Below are positions 47,740 to 57,630 of a DNA stretch of 57,630 nucleotides, one piece after another. How positions within the stretch are numbered: the first letter of the stretch is position 1; each line of letters opens with the position of its first letter. The notes beneath the pieces were generated by a model. That model was not told the DNA's origin, ran no database searches, and saw only the letters and a program-made list of their open reading frames with translations. The DNA is from Levilactobacillus humaensis (GTDB taxonomy: Bacteria > Bacillota > Bacilli > Lactobacillales > Lactobacillaceae), in assembly GCF_024345185.1 (NCBI RefSeq), contig NZ_BROB01000014.1, positions 1 to 57,630 of the forward strand, written 5' to 3'. The translations under genes and the position numbers were made by a program.

Positions 47740-48372
47740 ATGAGACATTTGCGAATTATTGAACCATTATTGGAAAACTATGCTGACCTACCCAACGCCA
47801 TTGAGGCAGGTGCCAAGCGCATCGCCCTCGCCGACAACCTTGCTGTCGGTGGCACGACTATCAGTAAGGGCGTCATGGGAGAAGCCGTCCGCTACGCCCA
47901 TGAACACCAAGTCACCCTCGACGTCTTAATCGCCCCTAGAGGCGGTCACAGCCCTTATAACGATGTCGAAATCAAGATGATGGAGGCCGACCTGCTCGAG
48001 GCACAACAACTTGGCGTCGACGGTGCCATCTTTGGCGCCCTAACCACCCAGCATACGTTGGATGTCGAGGCTCTCAGCCTTCTCATCGCCGCAGCCGGTG
48101 GCATGACCATTACGTTCAGTACGGCCTTCGATGACATCCGGCCCCAAGACCGAGGAACCGCCGTTGATTGGCTTAGTAGCCAGGGCTTTGACTATGTCCT
48201 GAGTACCGGCGCTGCCAGTGATGACCGGTTGGCCGACTGGACCGCCACCAAGCGGCTCTTAGACTCCGTTAACTTGACGCTGGTTGCCAGCGGTCTCACA
48301 GCCCAAGAAATTGAACCCGTTGCTAAGGAACTTGGCACAAACTTCTTCTTTGGCACCGACGTCCTCAAGTAA
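47740..48372 (+). CDS. cutC: CutC-family copper-homeostasis protein
   Basis: 210 residues, cytoplasmic TIM-barrel family named for copper tolerance though the biochemical role is unsettled. Seen: AGAKRIALADNLAVGGTTIS (usual form RIELCDNLAVGGTTPS; the Cys is replaced by Ala), LIAPRGGHSPYNDVEIKMM, and TFSTAFDDI where the family normally has FHRAFD. The lost Cys and His positions are copper-ligand candidates in other members, so metal binding may be weak. The ATG at 47740 is directly behind AAAGGA; a TTG at 47749 would have better spacing. Single plus-strand gene with a terminator. Confidence 0.88.
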   Translation: MRHLRIIEPLLENYADLPNAIEAGAKRIALADNLAVGGTTISKGVMGEAVRYAHEHQVTLDVLIAPRGGHSPYNDVEIKMMEADLLEAQQLGVDGAIFGALTTQHTLDVEALSLLIAAAGGMTITFSTAFDDIRPQDRGTAVDWLSSQGFDYVLSTGAASDDRLADWTATKRLLDSVNLTLVASGLTAQEIEPVAKELGTNFFFGTDVLK

Positions 48373-48384
48373 AATTTTCTAAAC

Positions 48385-48428
48385 GAAAGGCTCCCCACGT
48401 CTGTAAATGACGTGAGGAGCCTTTTCTT
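48385..48428. terminator. Terminator shared by cutC and the glycosyltransferase operon
   Basis: AAAGGCTCC-CCACGTC pairs with GACGTG-AGGAGCCTTTT around about seven bases; A-rich left side, CTTTTCTT on the right. It closes cutC and could close the convergent operon, which ends at 48524. Confidence 0.78.
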
Positions 48429-48523
48429 GTGAACCCCTTGGCCGTTAATCCGAGCCGTCGAAACCGCATTTTCAACGACCGCCGTTAACCCCCAATCAAC
48501 CCAAATGTTCACTGCCCACAGTC

Positions 48524-50023
48524 TTAATCGGCCAAGTCAGCCAGCAACGCCTGCCACTTCTGACGAGTTGCTGTGGCCGAGTAGTCATTGGCACGTTTGA
48601 GACTGTTTTTCATATAACGACGCTGGCGTTTCGGATCTTTTAAGTAATCACGAACCTTCCAGTATAGAAGATCTTGGTTGTTCCGCTCGACGAGGTTTCC
48701 GTTCTCACCGTCGATCACCATCTCATTTGGTCCATACCGAATATCATAACTGATGACTGGCACCCCAAAACTTAGGGCTTCGAGAGTCGTCAGTGAGAAA
48801 CCTTCCTCGACACTCGTGACCATTTCTAATGACGCCTGCTCGTACTCAGCCGTCAGATCAGGTAGATAGCCTCTGAAGAAGACATTTTTTTCCAAATGAT
48901 GTTCCGTCACGTAGTCGCGGAGACGCTGTTCCTCGACTCTGCTACCGAACCCAAAGAGATGTAACTCAACGTCTGGAAATTCATCGACAAGTCGACCCAC
49001 GACTTGGACCTGTTCCATCACTTGTTTTTCTGGTGAGAGCCGCGCAACCCCAATGATTCGGTGAGGCTGCTTCTTTCGCAAATTAACCCGTTGCTTCGTG
49101 GTATAGCCGACTGGAATCACCACAATTGGCGGTAATTCTGGGAACCGTTCCCGCAGGTCGGTTCGCTGTAATTCGGTTGAAACCACTATTCGGTCAAACA
49201 GTTGCGGATGCTCCAAGACGTATCGATAGGTCCCCTTCAGTGGGCCTTCAATCACGTTGGCTTGGTCACGCGCATGCGTACTGTGGAAGACCGCGCATAC
49301 GGTCACATCTGGCCGTGTGTCCCCAAAGGCTGGGGCTAGAGGCCCGTTCTTGTCACTGAAGTACACATCCCCCGCCTGATAGAGTTCGTTGAAGAAGAAC
49401 GTCTGAAGCTCACGTTCCGTATCAAAGAACCACTGCTGGCCGCGATAATCATTCAGAATAATCTGATGTAACTTCGGTTCGCCTGGGTCGTTGGTGTAAT
49501 ACTTTTCCATTTTGACGTGTCCCTCGGTATCCAGGTACACCTCATTCTGAACTTTTTGATTGTCATGCAGGTAACTTACCCGGCTCAGGAAGCCCCGGTT
49601 ATCGTAATGTTCCCGCTTAACCTTCATCCGTTTTGCATCGAAATAGTTCAGATAAACTAACTGTTTCAACGATTCATCTCTAAAGTGCGCATACATCAGG
49701 AAACGGCCCTCAGTGGTAAAGACCCGCACGTCTGGGGCCGAAGCCACCTTTTGAATCCGGTAATGGCACGTCTCTTCCCAATATTTGCACCAGTCAATCG
49801 CCTTAACGGGCACACTCACCGTGTCCTGAAAGTAGTCGTAGAGGCTAAAACAGTCGGGACCAATGCCAAAGCGTTCGGCATTAGCGTGAATGCCAGGATT
49901 GTATCGCGTATAGACACATTTAGCCGGAAGGTTAGCCGCCTTAAAGAGTTTCAAGCGGTTAACTTGGCCTTGTTCAATCCCCGTTAACTTTGCGTTAAAA
50001 TACACCGCAACAAAGTAGTTCAT
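48524..50023 (-). CDS. Glycosyltransferase, SdgA/SdgB-like (SD-repeat protein glycosylation)
   Basis: 499 residues, cytoplasmic. N-terminal about 300 residues form the long beta-sheet add-on seen in GtfA/SdgA/TagE-type enzymes; the start MNYFVAVYFNAKLTGIEQG resembles staphylococcal SdgA/SdgB as I recall them (motif LTGIEKA). GT-B C-terminal domain: IIGVARLSPEKQ (about 333, sugar-nucleotide phosphate contacts) and EEGFSLTTLEAL with the E-x7-E pair (about 415-424), followed by VPVISYDIRYGPNEMV. Likely transfers GlcNAc or another sugar from a UDP-sugar to Ser in SD repeats. AGGAGG before the ATG at 50023; two bases from its upstream paralogue. Last gene of the operon. Confidence 0.88.
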   Translation of the reverse strand: MNYFVAVYFNAKLTGIEQGQVNRLKLFKAANLPAKCVYTRYNPGIHANAERFGIGPDCFSLYDYFQDTVSVPVKAIDWCKYWEETCHYRIQKVASAPDVRVFTTEGRFLMYAHFRDESLKQLVYLNYFDAKRMKVKREHYDNRGFLSRVSYLHDNQKVQNEVYLDTEGHVKMEKYYTNDPGEPKLHQIILNDYRGQQWFFDTERELQTFFFNELYQAGDVYFSDKNGPLAPAFGDTRPDVTVCAVFHSTHARDQANVIEGPLKGTYRYVLEHPQLFDRIVVSTELQRTDLRERFPELPPIVVIPVGYTTKQRVNLRKKQPHRIIGVARLSPEKQVMEQVQVVGRLVDEFPDVELHLFGFGSRVEEQRLRDYVTEHHLEKNVFFRGYLPDLTAEYEQASLEMVTSVEEGFSLTTLEALSFGVPVISYDIRYGPNEMVIDGENGNLVERNNQDLLYWKVRDYLKDPKRQRRYMKNSLKRANDYSATATRQKWQALLADLAD

Positions 50024-50025
50024 GC

Positions 50026-51576
50026 TTAGGCCTCCTCAGCCACGGCGCGTTGGTTCTGCGTCTGGTGATCAAAGTAGTCCAGCAGAATTTGCCATTTAGC
50101 AAAGACCGCATCTTCTGAATAACGTTGTGCATTCTGATAAGCCGCCGCACTAAAGGCAGCCAACCGATCCTGATCACCCAGTAAGGCAATCATATCGTCA
50201 GCTAGCCCTTGAACATCGCCATCGGTCGTCAATAGACCACTCTCGCCATTGGCAATGATGTCGCTAGGCCCATACTTCACGTCGTTGGCAATCATTGGCA
50301 CCCCATGTGACTGGGCTTCCAGTAACATCAGCGAGAAGCCTTCGGCACGACTCGGCAATAGACCCAGCTGAGCACGGTCATAGACTGAGGCGATGTCGTG
50401 GGTGTAGCCCTTGAACGAAATCACATCACTCAAGCCACTGTCGGCTACCTGTTGCTTAAAGGCCTTCTCGACATCACCGTTAGCGTAACCCCAGAGCTCA
50501 AGCCGAGCATCCGGAAACTTCTCGTGGACCTGGGCAAAGGCTTGAATCGAATGATTCTGTTGCTTTTCTGGCGCCAAACGGGCAACGTGAACCACCAGGT
50601 GCTTCTGCCGCTTGCTGAATGGTTCTTGTGGGGCTGCCATCCGTTCATCCGTGACATAACCGACTGGAATCGTAAACGCTGGAATATCGGTGCCGAAGCG
50701 ATCGGCCACGTCTTGAGATTGTTCCGGTGTGGCAGAGATCACGGCATCCCACTTGTGCCAGTTCATTAAGGCATTTTGATAGTTGTTGTTAAGTGGTGAG
50801 TGAATCATATCGGTTGGATCGGCCACGTGGTCATTGTGCAGGTGTAAAACCTTGAAGGCTGGCGTCTGCATGTTGAAGAGCGCCCAGTCACATTCAACGG
50901 TCCGGTCACAGATGTAGACGTTGGTTTCTCCATTGACGTTCAATTCATCATAGAAGAAACGTGTCAGGCCATTCATCCCATTAAAGGTCCGACTACTGCC
51001 ATCCCCATAATTCAAGACGCGCCTGGAAAGATGTTCCTTGCCGGCATGATCAATGAGATGACACTTCTCAATGTGTACCAAGCCATCTGGTCCAAAGTAT
51101 TGTTCCTGGACGATCTTACCGTCCCAATCGAAGAGCTGTTCCAAACATTTGAAGCCTCGGGTATCCCACCAAACCATCTTGAGCGTCCGCCCATTCACAT
51201 CAAAGTACTGGATGTTGCTAATCTCATCTTCAGTACCTTTTCGCAGGTAAATAATCATAAGCATCTTCCCTTGCGAGAACACCTGAAGTTGATTGTCCTT
51301 CTTGGTACTGGTGGTGTTGCGTGGTAATGAAAAGTCGTTGAGCGTCAGTGGCTTGGTGGCCACCTCTTGGCTCCCACAGAAGAATTCAAATAGGTTCACG
51401 AAATTCTCGCGTGGAATACCAGCCTGTTTCAAAATATTAGTCAGGTCCATTGAGAAAATCCGTGTCACAATCTTGGCTGGAATACCATTTTTACGGAAGA
51501 GATGGAGTCGGTTAATTTCCGCGTGTTCAATCCCTGATTTTGAGTACTGCATGTTGTCATTTAAGAAATAATACAT
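50026..51576 (-). CDS. Glycosyltransferase paralogue 2 of the SD-repeat locus
   Basis: 516 residues, same layout as its two neighbours. N-terminal start MYYFLNDNMQYSKSGIEHAE, a beta-rich region with repeated DxxG turns (IQYFDVNGRTLKMVWWDTRG, DWDGKIVQEQYFGPDGL), and the GT-B catalytic half: HLHNDH near 254, IPVGYVTDE, LVVHVARLAPEKQ, and EGFSLMLLEAQ with the full E-x7-E pair, then YGPSDIIANGESGLL. All catalytic positions expected of a retaining family-4-type enzyme are present. GGGAGG before the ATG at 51576; 15 bases from the third paralogue. A sugar acceptor of Ser or a first sugar is inferred from the locus. Confidence 0.88.
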   Translation of the reverse strand: MYYFLNDNMQYSKSGIEHAEINRLHLFRKNGIPAKIVTRIFSMDLTNILKQAGIPRENFVNLFEFFCGSQEVATKPLTLNDFSLPRNTTSTKKDNQLQVFSQGKMLMIIYLRKGTEDEISNIQYFDVNGRTLKMVWWDTRGFKCLEQLFDWDGKIVQEQYFGPDGLVHIEKCHLIDHAGKEHLSRRVLNYGDGSSRTFNGMNGLTRFFYDELNVNGETNVYICDRTVECDWALFNMQTPAFKVLHLHNDHVADPTDMIHSPLNNNYQNALMNWHKWDAVISATPEQSQDVADRFGTDIPAFTIPVGYVTDERMAAPQEPFSKRQKHLVVHVARLAPEKQQNHSIQAFAQVHEKFPDARLELWGYANGDVEKAFKQQVADSGLSDVISFKGYTHDIASVYDRAQLGLLPSRAEGFSLMLLEAQSHGVPMIANDVKYGPSDIIANGESGLLTTDGDVQGLADDMIALLGDQDRLAAFSAAAYQNAQRYSEDAVFAKWQILLDYFDHQTQNQRAVAEEA

Positions 51577-51591
51577 GAGGCGTCCTCCCTT

Positions 51592-53106
51592 CTATGCCTG
51601 TAAGAAACGCTGCCAACGGTTCCAGACCCGACGTTGCGTCCAGGTCGCATTGGCTGTCTGATAAGCGGCGTGACTCATGGTCTGAAGCGTCTTCGGGTTG
51701 CTGAAGAGTTCGGTAACGTGTTCAGCCATTGCCAGTGAATTTCCGCGGTCAACCAAGTAACCGTTATCGCCATCCACAATCAGATCCTTTGGACCGTAAT
51801 TGAATGGGTAGCTAACGACTGGAATCCCATGGCTCATTGCCTCAAGCATTCCCATTGGCCCACCGTCAGCGATCGACATGTTGACGAGGACTTGATAAGT
51901 ATCGTATTTCTGGGTCAGCTCTGGAGCGTAGTCCTTGAAGGTCACATTGTGTTCAAGATGAAGTTCGCCGACCAGACTCACCATCTTTTTCTGATAGTCA
52001 TGGTCACCATAACCATAGAGGTCAAACGTCGCCCCGGGAACCCGATCATGAACTAACGCAAACATCCGTAAGAGCTGATCAATCTGCTTGTCCTGGGCAA
52101 TCCGTCCAACGTATAGCAAGCTGTTCGCCCGACGTTCAGTCGGCACAACTTCATCGCTACCATCCTTGGCCAATGGTGCCATCGTAACCGCTGGCATATC
52201 AAAGACATTGGCTTCTGGGAAACGTGTCCGCAAGTGCTCTGCCTGCTGTTCAGTCCCTGTAATGAAGCCATCAAAGTGCCGGAAGTGGTCAAAGGCCGGC
52301 TTCAAGAAGCCATCTAGGTCACCATGAAGCGGATCATCTGGTGTGACCGCGTGATTGATTGGCAGGTAAATGTATTTCCGTGACCCATCATCTAAGTTGA
52401 GTAGTGGTCGTACCCCAGTACCAGGACGATCGCTAATAAAGGTCGTTGCCCCAGCATCTTGCTTGCTAAGTTCTGCCAGGAAGAATTCAAATAAGTCATC
52501 TTGATTCTGGAAGAAGCGGTCACCTTGACCTTGATAATCTTTCAGAATTACCCGCGACACCATCGGATTGCCGTTCGTATCGGGCACACTATAAATTTCC
52601 AGTGCCGTCTGACCGGCTGGCGTGTAGTAACGTTCTAAGACCAACTTGCCATTCTGACCAAAGTACTGGGTGGCTGAACGGAACCCCCGCCAGTCCCACA
52701 GATCCGTTTCGATTAAATTGCCCTGATTGTCCGCATGTTCATGATAGAACACCCGACCAATGGTTCCCGGGATGAATCCCACTCGTCCGAGATTGTCATC
52801 ACCGTTGAGCACTTGACTGAAGTTGGCCCCCACAACCACTTCGGTTTCTACTGGCAGGCGTAAATCATCAGTTCGCATAACTGTCGTTGGCACGTTTGTC
52901 GCCTGTTGGAAGAAGTCAAACATGTTCACCACTTCATCATCTGCGAGTCCAAAGGTGGTCAATGTTCGATGCAACAACCGATCATAAATCTTTGTCACAA
53001 TCTTGGCGGGTTCCTGGTAATGATTAAACAGTTTCACGCGGTTCATTGCGGTATGTTCCACACTTGAATTTTTTTGCAAAATGTATTCGTTAATAAAATA
53101 ATACAC
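51592..53106 (-). CDS. Glycosyltransferase paralogue 3, with Asp in place of the first Glu of E-x7-E
   Basis: 504 residues from the GTG at 53106 (GAGG eight bases before), giving MYYFINEYILQKNSSVEHTA, aligned with its paralogues; the GTG at 53115 adds only three residues and lacks a ribosome site. Same N-terminal beta region (TDLWDWRGFRSATQYFGQNG). In the GT-B half LLYVGRIAQDKQ keeps Arg and Lys, but the E-x7-E site reads DGGPMGMLE, so the first acid is Asp. It may be a weak enzyme, have other specificity, or act as a partner subunit the way GtfB supports GtfA. Third gene of the operon. Confidence 0.87.
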   Translation of the reverse strand: MYYFINEYILQKNSSVEHTAMNRVKLFNHYQEPAKIVTKIYDRLLHRTLTTFGLADDEVVNMFDFFQQATNVPTTVMRTDDLRLPVETEVVVGANFSQVLNGDDNLGRVGFIPGTIGRVFYHEHADNQGNLIETDLWDWRGFRSATQYFGQNGKLVLERYYTPAGQTALEIYSVPDTNGNPMVSRVILKDYQGQGDRFFQNQDDLFEFFLAELSKQDAGATTFISDRPGTGVRPLLNLDDGSRKYIYLPINHAVTPDDPLHGDLDGFLKPAFDHFRHFDGFITGTEQQAEHLRTRFPEANVFDMPAVTMAPLAKDGSDEVVPTERRANSLLYVGRIAQDKQIDQLLRMFALVHDRVPGATFDLYGYGDHDYQKKMVSLVGELHLEHNVTFKDYAPELTQKYDTYQVLVNMSIADGGPMGMLEAMSHGIPVVSYPFNYGPKDLIVDGDNGYLVDRGNSLAMAEHVTELFSNPKTLQTMSHAAYQTANATWTQRRVWNRWQRFLQA

Positions 53107-53142
53107 GACTGCCACCTCATTCTTTTCGACTAATTATCCCCG

Positions 53143-53346
53143 TTACTCTTCCCAGGGATACTTACCTTCATCATTTTTTTCTGTGTGTTTCATCATGTAT
53201 TCCGTCCGTTCATCCATTCGTTTGCGGGTCTTCCGCTTATTTGCGGATCGGAAAACCAACACCACGATTCCTAAAACAATATAAATGGATAACCGTAGAA
53301 AGAACTGAATCTTCTTATAGGCAAAGATACTGGTTAACGTTAGCAT
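53143..53346 (-). CDS. Single-pass membrane miniprotein, 67 residues
   Basis: Start ATG at 53346 after AAAGGAG. Helix FLRLSIYIVLGIVVLVF spans the membrane (about 16-32); a strongly basic patch follows (RSANKRKTRKRMDERTE), placing the C-terminal part in the cytoplasm, and the end is acidic (KNDEGKYPWEE). It lies in the middle of the glycosylation operon, 15 bases after the 546-residue gene and 36 bases before the next start. Not recognised. Possible roles: anchor for the glycosyltransferases at the membrane or a link to the secretion channel (inference). Confidence 0.8.
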   Translation of the reverse strand: MLTLTSIFAYKKIQFFLRLSIYIVLGIVVLVFRSANKRKTRKRMDERTEYMMKHTEKNDEGKYPWEE

Positions 53347-53361
53347 GCAAGTGGCTCCTTT

Positions 53362-55002
53362 CTAATACTTATAGTCATAGTAACTAATCAATCCTGATAA
53401 GAAATGTTCACAATCATCGATCCGTGTTCGGAAGTGGTCATTGCGGGCATAGAAGCCACCGACCAATTTGGCTGGATGGTAGAAGTACATTGCCACCTCA
53501 GGGAGGAAACTTCCAGCCAACAGCTCATACTCAGCCCGGTACTGCCAAACGGAGCGAAGAGCGGCCACGTCATAAGGAGCCAACAAGTCACCGTTACCAG
53601 TCGCTTGAATGGTATCCGTCATCTTGACAGCTGCCGTCAGTAACTCTAAACGCGTCGGATAAGGCATCAATTTGTGCTCGATGTTGTCCAAATCTTCAAA
53701 AGCATTCTTCAGCCCCATCACCATATAATCACGGTTATTACCGAAGATTGCTAAGGCATCGTTGACGGCATAAGCAATCCAGTGGTCATGGTTCTTACCA
53801 TAGTCGTGAGCCACCATGAAGTCCAAAGTTTCCTGAATCAAGGTCTTCACGTGCTCATCCTGTGTCAGGGCATACAGCCGTGACATGGCGAAAACAATTT
53901 CACCTTCATAATAAATGACTCGGAAGGCATCCTTAGCACTCAAGTCCGATCGTAACACATGATTGAATCGGCCATCTGGCTGGCGAAAGGCTTCGATTCC
54001 TCTAAAGGCCTGCATCGCTTGTTTTTCGAATCGGTCTTCATGAGTGACTTCTTGGTACTTGCACAGTGCCAGAATTAACATTGCCTGTGCCCCAAGTTTC
54101 AACTCGGCCTCGCCCTCTTTAGGCTGTTCCACGACGAATAACGCATCGTTTTTTACCATTGTCAGATGTTCCAGCCCCCATTTGAGTGCATGCTTAGCTT
54201 GCTTGAGGTCCTCGGAACGCTTGGTAAACGTAATCGCTTCCAATAAAGCATAAATCGAAGAGAAGTGCCGGACACTATTGTAGTTGCTTAAGACTCGCTT
54301 GAGGCTTGGAAAGTATCCATAAATGAACTGACCATCGTCTTTTATCTGATTTTTCAGGTAGGTTTCACCTAACCCTAAATAATCTGCCAGTTCTTGCTTG
54401 GGTTCCACTAATTGACGAACACCCAGTAACTGCGGGTGATTGTCTTCTAGCCGCCAGACCCGATTGCCATCGGTGAACACGCCGCTGGTTGCGAAGGTCC
54501 AGACAGTGTCGCCAGCCTGGATATCAACGTCGACCTTACCATTGCGTTTCATGAGATATTCCGCAATTGCCGAATAATTTACAGTAGCTTTGGCGGTTGT
54601 TTTCCCGACTTTATAGTCTTGAGCAGGTTCAAAGAACTCATGACCGTTAATTTCCATTTCTAGGAGTGCCGTTTGGAAATCCTTGTCAAAGCTGACTCCC
54701 CGCCGCCAAAAATTGCCACGGGTAATCTTAGCCACATCCGTCGTAAATTTTTCTCGACTAATTTGCTGGATAGAGTGAACGGTTTCTACCCTGATCCAGG
54801 ATGACGCTACCGCCTTAGTGAGAAGATGTTCAACCTGAACCCAGGCCTTCTTAAACGACTCTTCATGGACCACCGTTACGGCCGCACGATGTCTTTTATC
54901 GGAAATTGAAACCACCAACGTTGACTGTCCTGTCACCTGGTTTTGAAGATTACCCCGGTTAATTAGTTCCGCTTTCAAACGCTTAATTAACGCCTTTTTC
55001 AT
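53362..55002 (-). CDS. Two-part protein of unknown function in the SD-repeat locus, probable alpha/alpha-barrel C-terminal half
   Basis: 546 residues, no signal peptide or membrane helix, so probably cytoplasmic. Residues 1-200 are a mixed alpha/beta domain (MKKALIKRLKAELINRGNLQ ... TRGNFWRRGVSFDKDFQTAL) that I do not recognise. Residues about 225-546 are almost all helices in pairs with Trp, Tyr and Gly/Asn turns (FIYGYFPSLKR; RQPDGRFNHVL; FRVIYYEGEIVFAMSRLYAL; DHWIAYAVNDALAIFG), the pattern of alpha/alpha toroids such as glycoside hydrolases or epimerases. YYEGE with acidic residues could be an active site. First gene of the operon behind the SD-repeat gene. A role in trimming or modifying the attached sugar is a guess. 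Confidence 0.8.
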   Translation of the reverse strand: MKKALIKRLKAELINRGNLQNQVTGQSTLVVSISDKRHRAAVTVVHEESFKKAWVQVEHLLTKAVASSWIRVETVHSIQQISREKFTTDVAKITRGNFWRRGVSFDKDFQTALLEMEINGHEFFEPAQDYKVGKTTAKATVNYSAIAEYLMKRNGKVDVDIQAGDTVWTFATSGVFTDGNRVWRLEDNHPQLLGVRQLVEPKQELADYLGLGETYLKNQIKDDGQFIYGYFPSLKRVLSNYNSVRHFSSIYALLEAITFTKRSEDLKQAKHALKWGLEHLTMVKNDALFVVEQPKEGEAELKLGAQAMLILALCKYQEVTHEDRFEKQAMQAFRGIEAFRQPDGRFNHVLRSDLSAKDAFRVIYYEGEIVFAMSRLYALTQDEHVKTLIQETLDFMVAHDYGKNHDHWIAYAVNDALAIFGNNRDYMVMGLKNAFEDLDNIEHKLMPYPTRLELLTAAVKMTDTIQATGNGDLLAPYDVAALRSVWQYRAEYELLAGSFLPEVAMYFYHPAKLVGGFYARNDHFRTRIDDCEHFLSGLISYYDYKY

Positions 55003-55143
55003 CTAATTTCACGCCCCCATAAATCCTTAGTGTTTTACGAGAAAGCCCAATAGAAAATTAGTTTATCTAAATCTCATTCACTATAAACTAATGATACTAT
55101 TTCTTTCGCGTATTGTCGATTAATAGCCTCGACTTATGTAAGA

Positions 55144-55169
55144 ATCCTCACAGTTTGACCTGTGAGGAT
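55144..55169 (-). terminator. Hairpin after the SD-repeat gene
   Basis: ATCCTCACAG (55144-55153) pairs perfectly with CTGTGAGGAT (55160-55169) around six bases. The following minus-strand bases TTCTTAC are only moderately T-rich, so it may be a leaky terminator that lets some transcription into the operon. Confidence 0.65.
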
Positions 55170-55211
55170 CCGGTCATGTAACGTCGCCGTTACACTTTGT
55201 ACATTGTGTTA

Positions 55212-57630
55212 CTAAACCGTGTGATCGTCATCACTGTTATTTTGACCGTGCTTGCGACCGAAGAACCACCATGAACCACCTGTTGCGGCAGCAATCGCTG
55301 CAACAATTGCCCCCCAGAGCGTGGTGTGATTGTCTTCATTGTTATCAGGAGTCGTCGAAGCTGCATCAGCAGAGTTTCCAGAATTCTTGACATTACTATC
55401 ACTGCCATTACTATTCTTGGAATCCTCTGACTTGCTTTGCTTGTCAGAATCATCCTGACTCGCATCATCCGAAGTACCGGTTGTCCCAGCTGCCGTTAAG
55501 TCGACTGGCGTTGCTTGGCCTTGAACCGCATCGCCTGAGTAACCTAAGGTAGTTGCCGTGCCACCTGCAGTGCCCGAAACATTAGTACCAGAACCAGTGC
55601 CATTGTTTGAACCACCGTTTGTGTCACTACCGTTACCAGTGCCAGAACCAGAGCCAGAGCCTGAGCCTGAGCCACCGTTTCCGCCGTTTCCATTATTTCC
55701 GCCGTCTCCAGCATTCCCATCAGAATCACTATCTGAGTCGGTATTACCATCGGAATCGCTGTCGCTATCCGTATTGCCGTCAGAGTCTGAATCGGAGTCA
55801 CTGTCGGAGTCTGAATCACTGTCGGAATCAGAGTCACTGTCGGAGTCTGAATCACTGTCGGAATCTGAATCACTATCGGAGTCCGAATCACTGTCAGAAT
55901 CGGAGTCACTGTCAGAATCAGAGTCACTGTCGGAATCAGAGTCACTGTCGGAATCGGAGTCACTGTCGCTGTCCGAATCACTGTCTGAGTCTGAGTCACT
56001 ATCTGAGTCCGAGTCACTGTCGGAGTCAGAATCACTGTCGCTATCTGAGTCACTGTCGGAATCGGAGTCACTATCGCTATCCGAGTCACTGTCGGAATCT
56101 GAGTCGCTATCTGAATCTGAGTCGCTATCCGAGTCAGAATCACTGTCGGAATCCGAATCACTATCGGAGTCAGAGTCACTGTCGGAGTCAGAATCACTGT
56201 CGGAGTCAGAGTCACTGTCGGAGTCAGAATCACTATCTGAGTCTGAGTCACTGTCGGAATCAGAGTCACTGTCGGAGTCTGAATCACTGTCGGAGTCCGA
56301 ATCACTGTCGGAGTCTGAATCACTGTCGGAGTCTGAATCACTGTCGGAGTCTGAATCACTGTCGGAGTCTGAATCACTGTCGGAATCTGAGTCTGAATCG
56401 GAATCGGAATCACTGTCGCTATCCGAATCACTGTCGGAGTCCGAGTCACTGTCGGAATCTGAGTCGCTGTCCGAATCGGAATCACTATCTGAATCAGAAT
56501 CACTGTCGGAATCTGAGTCGCTGTCCGAATCGGAATCACTATCTGAATCAGAATCACTGTCTGAATCTGAGTCGCTGTCGGAGTCTGAGTCTGAATCGGA
56601 ATCACTGTCGCTATCGGAGTCTGAGTCACTGTCTGAATCTGAGTCACTGTCGGAGTCTGAGTCACTATCGGAGTCCGAATCACTGTCAGAATCGGAGTCA
56701 CTGTCGCTATCCGAATCACTATCTGAGTCCGAGTCACTATCGGAGTCTGAATCACTGTCTGAGTCCGAGTCACTGTCGGAGTCTGAATCACTATCGGAAT
56801 CGGAGTCGCTGTCGGAGTCGGAATCGCTATCGCTGTCCGAATCACTGTCGGAGTCTGAGTCACTGTCGGAGTCTGAGTCGCTGTCCGAATCACTGTCGCT
56901 ATCGGAATCACTATCTGAGTCCGAATCGCTGTCTGAGTCTGAGTCACTGTCGGAATCAGAGTCACTATCGGAGTCCGAATCACTATCTGAATCAGAATCA
57001 CTGTCGGAATCTGAGTCGCTGTCTGAGTCTGAGTCGCTATCTGAATCCGAATCACTGTCGGAATCTGAGTCGCTGTCTGAGTCTGAGTCGCTATCTGAAT
57101 CCGAGTCACTGTCGGAGTCCGAATCACTGTCGCTATCGGAGTCCGAATCGCTGTCCGAATCACTGTCGGAATCAGAATCGCTATCGGAGTCTGAATCACT
57201 ATCTGAATCGGAGTCGCTGTCTGAGTCTGAATCACTGTCGGAATCCGAATCACTGTCGGAATCTGAGTCACTATCGGAGTCTGAATCACTGTCGGAGTCT
57301 GAATCACTATCGGAATCCGAGTCACTGTCGGAATCCGAGTCACTGTCGGAGTCTGAATCACTATCGGAGTCTGAGTCACTGTCGGAATCCGAGTCGCTAT
57401 CTGAGTCAGAGTCACTGTCAGAATCAGAGTCACTGTCTGAGTCTGAGTCACTGTCGGAATCAGAATCACTGTCGGAGTCCGAATCACTATCGGAGTCTGA
57501 GTCACTGTCGGAGTCTGAATCACTGTCGGAATCCGAGTCACTGTCGGAGTCGGAATCACTGTCGGAATCTGAATCACTGTCGGAATCTGAATCACTGTCG
57601 GAATCCGAATCGCTATCAGAGTCGGAATCA
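55212..57630 (-). CDS. Giant serine-aspartate repeat surface protein, C-terminal part (5' end outside window)
   Basis: The frame is open from the window's right edge to the TAG at 55212-55214; about 805 codons are visible and the N terminus with the expected signal peptide and binding domains is missing. In order: at least about 617 codons of Ser-Asp dipeptide (see repeat), a short [18 protein letters not shown] bridge, a Gly/Asn/Ser/Thr-rich segment with [11 protein letters not shown], a linker ([20 protein letters not shown] ... [13 protein letters not shown]), then a hydrophobic span [20 protein letters not shown] with FFGRKHG and an acidic end DDDHTV. The end looks like a cell-wall sorting tail, yet no LPXTG is present upstream of it. 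The SD stalk is a likely target for the glycosyltransferases downstream. Confidence 0.92.
55779..57630 (-). repeat. SD-repeat tract built from 18-nt modules
   Basis: About 1.85 kb of GAY-Ser codons without a visible break, continuing past the window edge. Ser codons alternate so that the module is GAYTCNGAYTCNGAYAGY: for example GATTCAGACTCCGACAGT. AGT/AGC mostly recurs every third Ser, with occasional 12-nt and 24-nt variants where two AGY codons come close or three TCN codons follow each other. This is the module described for staphylococcal clf/sdr genes. TCN use rotates between TCA, TCC, TCG and TCT, which lowers exact identity between modules. Confidence 0.93.

Follow-up and report, generated by a model that had tools for sequence, protein, structure and literature searches.

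What is done to the aspartates in the long dipeptide-repeat stalks of bacterial surface proteins? Ser-Asp (SD) stalks are a textbook feature of staphylococcal adhesins, and the transferases that add N-acetylglucosamine (GlcNAc) to them are known. The question of the aspartates is raised by a locus of Levilactobacillus humaensis in which the gene of an SD-repeat surface protein is followed by those of an unnamed 546-residue protein (U546), a miniprotein and three glycosyltransferases (GT1, GT2 and GT3). It lies at one end of the window, the whole stretch of 57,630 nucleotides that was analysed, which is the entire contig NZ_BROB01000014.1 (contig C14 of its genome) and which ends inside the SD repeat. 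On balance, this locus probably makes and finishes a glycosylated SD-stalk protein, with U546 and the miniprotein handling or modifying the aspartate stalk and the glycosyltransferases (GTs) adding sugars to its serines. The wider interest lies in U546, which goes with Asp-dipeptide stalks in bacteria as far apart as Lactobacillaceae, Listeria, Pseudomonas and Agrobacterium; as Ala-Asp repeats offer almost no hydroxyl for O-glycosylation, this distribution points to a shared, apparently unstudied step in the building of long surface stalks.

Two samples of loci carry the argument (L, G and C numbers denote loci, genomes and contigs). Set A comprises the best 80 of 345 U546-encoding stretches from a scan of genome contigs, 32 of the 80 being Lactobacillaceae loci. 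Set B comes from a class survey in which 30 of 398 genomes gave 32 U546 matches; leaving out the window's own match and two broken pieces, and merging two matches at one locus, gives 28 loci. A Vagococcus genome (L090 and L146), at least, belongs to both sets. With a stalk defined as at least 10 consecutive xD dipeptides, one was present at 62 of 80 set-A loci, in 48 cases within 563 bases of U546 and otherwise up to 6.2 kb away, and at 24 of 28 set-B loci, always within 520 bases, as against none of 12 control stretches lying 200-300 kb away in set-B genomes. The stalk gene is upstream of U546 on the same strand in 52 of the 62 and 23 of the 24 cases. Across the pooled stalks, the residue X of the (X-Asp)n repeat is nearly always Ser, Ala, Thr or Gly, and Ala-Asp stalks hold almost no Ser or Thr yet still adjoin U546; the comparison shows that U546, and in Lactobacillales also the miniprotein, accompanies such stalks whatever X may be. 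Judged from these sequences, U546 tracks the aspartate of the stalk and not the serine, because stalks are kept irrespective of X and, in set A, GT-B glycosyltransferases occur only with Ser/Thr stalks. A minority of U546 copies has no stalk within reach. No Asp-dipeptide stalk was seen in the fetched stretches around U546 at L068, L111, L126, L127, L129, L131, L135, L164 and L168; amongst stalkless set-A loci, L097 and L122 show AD repeats at the edge of the stretch and several stop at contig edges, and in 17 extra stretches from nine of the genomes concerned the sole stalks were those close to two additional copies of U546.

In set A the enzyme beside U546 changes with the stalk. The queries used to look for partners were Sdg-type GT-B, Mur ligase and PGA_cap, and a GT-B enzyme adjoined or was fused at 27 of 36 Ser/Thr stalks versus 0 of 26 Ala or other stalks (Fisher 3e-10). 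Reduced to one entry per genus and state, with two Bacillus species and one Lactobacillus each treated as genera, the counts become 6, 4, 0 and 16 (p 9e-4), or 3, 2, 0 and 15 with Lactobacillaceae removed (p 0.009). Three of the nine Ser/Thr stalks that lack GT-B (L091-L093) stand beside an enlarged U546, the addition in the one that was scanned, L093, being a GT-A domain. Within 6.5 kb of U546 or fused to it, Mur ligases and GT-B enzymes each occur at 32 of 80 set-A loci, with 18 of 80, L091-L093 included, matching none of the three queries; the four Mur-ligase partners tested are MurF-like by NCBIfam, at scores under its cut-off. An expectation that long proteobacterial U546 proteins would be GT fusions proved wrong for most of them: the 28 proteobacterial set-A loci hold a fused Mur-ligase domain in 17 cases, GT-B in three and a methyltransferase in one (L107). 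Ala-Asp stalks occur with a fused Mur ligase in Pseudomonas (L116) and in Agrobacterium, where genes for type I secretion and for an adhesin of the BapA type lie beside the fusion gene, and with a Mur ligase in Enterococcus (L099); staphylococcal plasmids combine mixed Ala/Ser-Asp stalks with a Mur ligase, whose frame is in pieces at L137. In Listeria and some Bacillus relatives, an Ala-Asp stalk and U546 were found with no GT-B or Mur ligase. The U546-methyltransferase fusion of Methylobacter (L107, 9905-13243) lies beside a mixed Ala/Ser-Asp stalk. U546 proteins of more than 2000 residues occur at L101 (9908-16102) and L123; the extra domains at L101, PGA_cap and two Mur-ligase units, have a layout that recalls poly-gamma-glutamate synthesis.

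Closer to the window, U546 is present in 22 of 301 Lactobacillaceae genomes and 3 of 40 genera, the named records being Levilactobacillus, Lactiplantibacillus and Paucilactobacillus. The other 21 genomes contribute 23 loci (L032-L054, two of them halves of one genome), with GT neighbours at 21 and an Asp-dipeptide stalk at 21. The SdrC model, through its SD repeat, matches 15 of the 301 genomes, all amongst the 22 with U546, in a search limited to two scored candidates per genome and blind to Thr-Asp or Ala-Asp stalks; of the seven remaining U546 genomes, five carry Thr-Asp stalks (G227, G071, G149, G172 and G287), G127 has an Ala/Ser-Asp stalk, and in G084 U546 is broken and no stalk was found. 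The locus is not a chance grouping, since U546 recurs across the family with GTs and stalks, and the co-occurrence with SD-repeat genes that an earlier note on this DNA, made from the sequence alone, had proposed as a check is borne out, with SD or Thr-Asp stalks adjoining. The Lactiplantibacillus loci L041-L046 and L048 (genus g38) have mainly Thr-Asp stalks with the same operon adjoining, and the operon was also found in an L. plantarum genome (L082). In Levilactobacillus brevis ATCC 14869 (L054/L089) U546 is broken by stops, a search of the locus found no stalk, and only a remnant of GT3 is left beside full-length GT1 and GT2 frames; U546 and stalk seem to have been lost together. Additional SD-repeat matches lie on other contigs in two of the Lactobacillaceae genomes (G053:C5 and G243:C5).

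What kind of protein is U546? The earlier note's two-part protein of unrecognised type is a single intact open reading frame (53362-55002, minus strand), although its predicted model does have two structural parts, residues 1-196 and an alpha/alpha toroid of the sugar-epimerase type at 197-546. Fold searches covered the latter part, and the nearest folds are enzymes. The window's U546 has no sequence-family match in Pfam, NCBIfam or the PDB, nor did a sequence-profile search of the PDB give any. Over 36 diverse members 48 positions are invariant, including many Arg, Lys and His and, within the toroid, several His, Glu and Asp. The AGE superfamily (PF07221) is matched by one of the 36 at E 0.097, which gives no significant membership. 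Other family matches amongst the 36, none of them set against family cut-offs, are weak: YceG in 12 (best 1.4e-5), GH127 in six (best 1.2e-6), the C5-epimerase C-terminus in five, GH88, pectate lyase and GH76 in three each, and LanC-like, LanM and EpiA in two each, with some matches to cellobiose 2-epimerase as well. The N-terminal part was considered as a GT relative and found no support (hhalign probability 0.1%). Public annotation often labels relatives of U546 poly(glycerol-phosphate) alpha-glucosyltransferase (hits H68-H82); this is probably a misnaming, since there is no GT family amongst the matches of the U546 part in the 36 members.

The miniprotein (67 residues, 53143-53346, minus strand) is predicted to form one long helix with a hydrophobic N-terminal half, a basic linker and a C-terminal GKYPWE motif (predicted template modelling score, pTM, 0.41). 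Searched with phmmer, the window's copy finds relatives at 28 of the 32 Lactobacillaceae loci of set A and at 0 of the 48 others; small membrane-type proteins with a GxYPWE motif also stand beside U546 in Enterococcus and Vagococcus, and the motif occurs at 40 of 108 U546 loci versus 0 of 29 control or extension stretches. Some of these proteins accompany Ala-Asp stalks (L090, L099, L102 and L119), so that the miniprotein is not tied to glycosylation. The claim that the two extra proteins belong to a glycosylation module confined to lactobacilli is thus unsupported, both recurring with Ala-Asp stalks that are almost without Ser or Thr.

Glycosylation itself would be the business of the three downstream genes, again on the minus strand: GT1 (51592-53115), GT2 (50026-51576) and GT3 (48524-50023). 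All are GT-B proteins whose best NCBIfam matches are the SdgA/SdgB models (215, 272 and 515 bits, respectively, versus 113-144 bits for the GtfA model) and whose best solved-structure match is SdgB (159, 189 and 417 bits), above Gtf1/GtfA and TarM; GT3, the nearest to SdgB, aligns with SdgB structures nearly end to end. These rankings support the assignment, already made in the earlier note, of all three as protein glycosyltransferases of the SdgA/SdgB type. As none reaches the curated cut-off of 800 bits (NF047880/NF047881; best 515 bits), they are named Sdg-like and not SdgA or SdgB. An excerpt of PMC8561734 places the uridine diphosphate (UDP)/GlcNAc site of SdgB at His246, Arg329, Lys334, Glu406 and Glu414. 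All five residues are retained in GT2 (17 of 17 rows) and GT3 (9 of 9). Amongst 17 copies of GT1, by contrast, His246 is always replaced by Pro and Glu406 by Asp or Asn, with Lys334 replaced by Arg in 10; the window's own copy has Pro and Asp at the first two, and Ser in place of Gly15. Because the sugar-site His and Glu are replaced in every copy, and by analogy with an O-glycosylating GtfA and its chaperone-like partner GtfB (as described in an excerpt of PMC5796085), GT1 is probably a non-catalytic partner, and the idea of three enzymes acting on the SD stalk is unsupported, given its degenerate look.

All the genes that the earlier note listed, from a giant SD-repeat protein to the operon behind it, are present on the minus strand, transcribed in the order SD gene, U546, miniprotein, GT1, GT2 and GT3. 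Gaps from U546 through GT3 are 15, 27, 15 and 2 bases, and 209 bases separate the SD gene from U546. In that spacer, RNA folding predicts two strong hairpins 3' of the SD gene (55125-55200, minus strand; -30.5 kcal/mol, z -5.2, 0 of 200 shuffles equally stable), a terminator or mRNA end, at a site where a scan for T-run terminators reported none; as they lie 5' of U546, the operon may be transcribed on its own. A promoter scan of 48350-55300 performed at chance (7 found, 7.9 expected). The SD gene (55212-57630, minus strand) encodes the C-terminal 805 residues of its protein in a frame open at the contig end, so the locus is less complete than it had looked: the missing N-terminus is on contig C15 (G000:C15:3444-5543), 94% identical to that of a relative. 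The 308 SD dipeptides form an uninterrupted run written in mixed Ser and Asp codons, which suggests selection at the protein level, and are joined by a G/S/N-rich region and a C-terminal membrane segment, with no LPXTG motif. That relative's SD protein (L033) carries a KxYKxGKxW signal peptide (30.2 bits, cut-off 18). Levilactobacillus SD proteins (window 55212-55350; L033, L034 and L037) share a conserved membrane tail without LPXTG and relatives at L046, L048 and L051 terminate in LPQTNE, two ways of anchoring the same kind of stalk.

How might these parts work together? By homology, GT3 and GT2 would move GlcNAc-type sugars from UDP donors onto stalk serines in the cytoplasm, with GT1 as a degenerate partner that would hold or position the acceptor. 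The groove of the U546 toroid would take up the polyanionic stalk, whose aspartates U546 would act on, or present, before export, and the miniprotein would tether U546 to the membrane close to where export takes place. The stalk would select its tailoring enzyme, a GT for Ser or Thr, often a MurF-like carboxylate ligase for Ala and rarely a methyltransferase. MurF-like ligases join an amine to a carboxylate, and Asp is the sole repeated carboxylate of an Ala-Asp stalk, which argues, albeit indirectly, for Asp-directed chemistry. A bolder proposal, put forward tentatively, is that U546 and the YPWE miniprotein are an unrecognised and widespread system modifying Asp in (X-Asp)n stalks, a new post-translational modification in which MurF-like ligases (perhaps forming Asp side-chain amides), GTs and the methyltransferase would be interchangeable second enzymes, and of which the lactobacillar SD locus would be the version adding serine O-glycosylation. 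Several points weigh against the main scheme. The toroid might do no more than bind. Aligned by hhalign with 2-epimerases, for which some of the 11 templates were fragments, U546 gives a weak match that is out of register, so that catalytic residues are not mapped; the membrane role of the miniprotein is guesswork from sequence. Set A is a selection of best matches, rich in Lactobacillaceae, and 'no partner' means none of the three kinds sought. In set B the GT trend is weaker, at 3 of 7 Ser/Thr-majority stalks versus 1 of 17 others (the latter L163, a weak match of 49 bits). Stalks were lacking from the fetched stretches of 18 of 80 set-A loci, partly at contig edges, and 4 of 28 in set B. 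Finally, 40 of the 398 genomes in the class survey match SdrC, 22 with U546 and 18 without (seven of the 18 in family f14, which we take to be Staphylococcaceae, and some matching SdrC only outside the SD repeat), making U546 not obligatory for SD stalks outside Lactobacillaceae.

Could U546 instead be a pure chaperone or adaptor, binding (X-Asp)n, keeping it unfolded and export-ready and recruiting the tailoring enzyme with no chemistry of its own? This is a serious possibility, if short of an even chance: partners swap, C-terminal fusions join U546 to unrelated enzymes, its many invariant Arg, Lys and His would suit polyanion binding and the window's copy falls in no named enzyme family, whereas 48 invariant positions, with His, Glu and Asp in the toroid, seem more than a charged groove needs, and the nearest folds are enzymes. 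That U546 supplies sugars or edits glycans as an epimerase, for instance a GlcNAc 2-epimerase, is unlikely. Fusions to Mur ligases and a methyltransferase, and the presence of U546 beside Ala-Asp stalks in Listeria, Bacillus, Virgibacillus, Shouchella and Vagococcus, where no Sdg-type GT was found close by, speak against it, despite an epimerase-type toroid, the weak matches of some members to cellobiose 2-epimerase, C5-epimerase and GH127, and an operon shared with GTs. Very unlikely is an operon that glycosylates wall teichoic acid, with the SD gene a chance neighbour, an alternative that the earlier note had named as fatal to its proposal. TarM structures are recognisable relatives of the GTs (84-94 bits) and many U546 relatives bear a teichoic-acid annotation, but SdgB scores far above TarM (417 versus 86 bits for GT3), which disposes of a TagE/TarM origin, the stalk keeps company with U546 in different genera and phyla, and the window's U546 shows no GT domain.

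A stalk-finishing locus in which U546 attends to aspartates and GTs to serines can be set beside several known systems. It resembles staphylococcal SdgA/SdgB in the SD stalk gene adjoining paralogous GT-B genes and in the site residues kept in GT2 and GT3, and differs in its third, degenerate GT, U546, the miniprotein and a non-LPXTG membrane tail. With the serine-rich repeat proteins of the accessory Sec pathway it shares the KxYKxGKxW signal peptide and, as proposed here, cytosolic O-glycosylation by a GT with a chaperone-like partner; unlike there, the GTs are nearer SdgA/SdgB than GtfA and no SecY2 in the genome exceeds the cut-off (best 191 bits against 249.6, sub-cut-off matches occurring also in 9 of 14 control genomes). 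An accessory Sec system was rejected on this ground, in keeping with the earlier note's lack of SecY2, its lack of SecA2 and Asp genes having had no search aimed at it. AGE superfamily epimerases such as cellobiose 2-epimerase share the alpha/alpha toroid of the U546 model, whereas U546 lacks sequence membership, has an extra N-terminal part and sits with stalk genes. In Listeria monocytogenes (L141), an LPXTG protein with an Ala-Asp stalk, presumably Lmo1799, is encoded directly upstream of a U546 relative; unlike in the window, the stalk is nearly free of Ser and there is no GT or Mur ligase amongst 17 annotated features. Lmo1799 is described in an excerpt of PMC8687577 as an LPXTG protein with 226 Ala-Asp repeats. 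Titles and the beginnings of abstracts in the open-access literature yielded nothing recognisable on the YPWE miniprotein, on U546 or on its link with Mur ligases and the switch of partners. The nearest precedent is L. plantarum lp_1303a, which a passage of PMC3271238 (2011) presents as a membrane-anchored protein whose SD repeats number in the hundreds and whose gene adjoins three for putative GTs, and for which it suggests glycosylation; that passage mentions neither U546 nor the miniprotein nor other Asp stalks, and its lp_ numbers are unmatched to the genes here. The GT part is thus already known, contrary to the earlier note's description of the system as undescribed, and the locus is a variant of Sdg glycosylation in which it is U546 that may be new.

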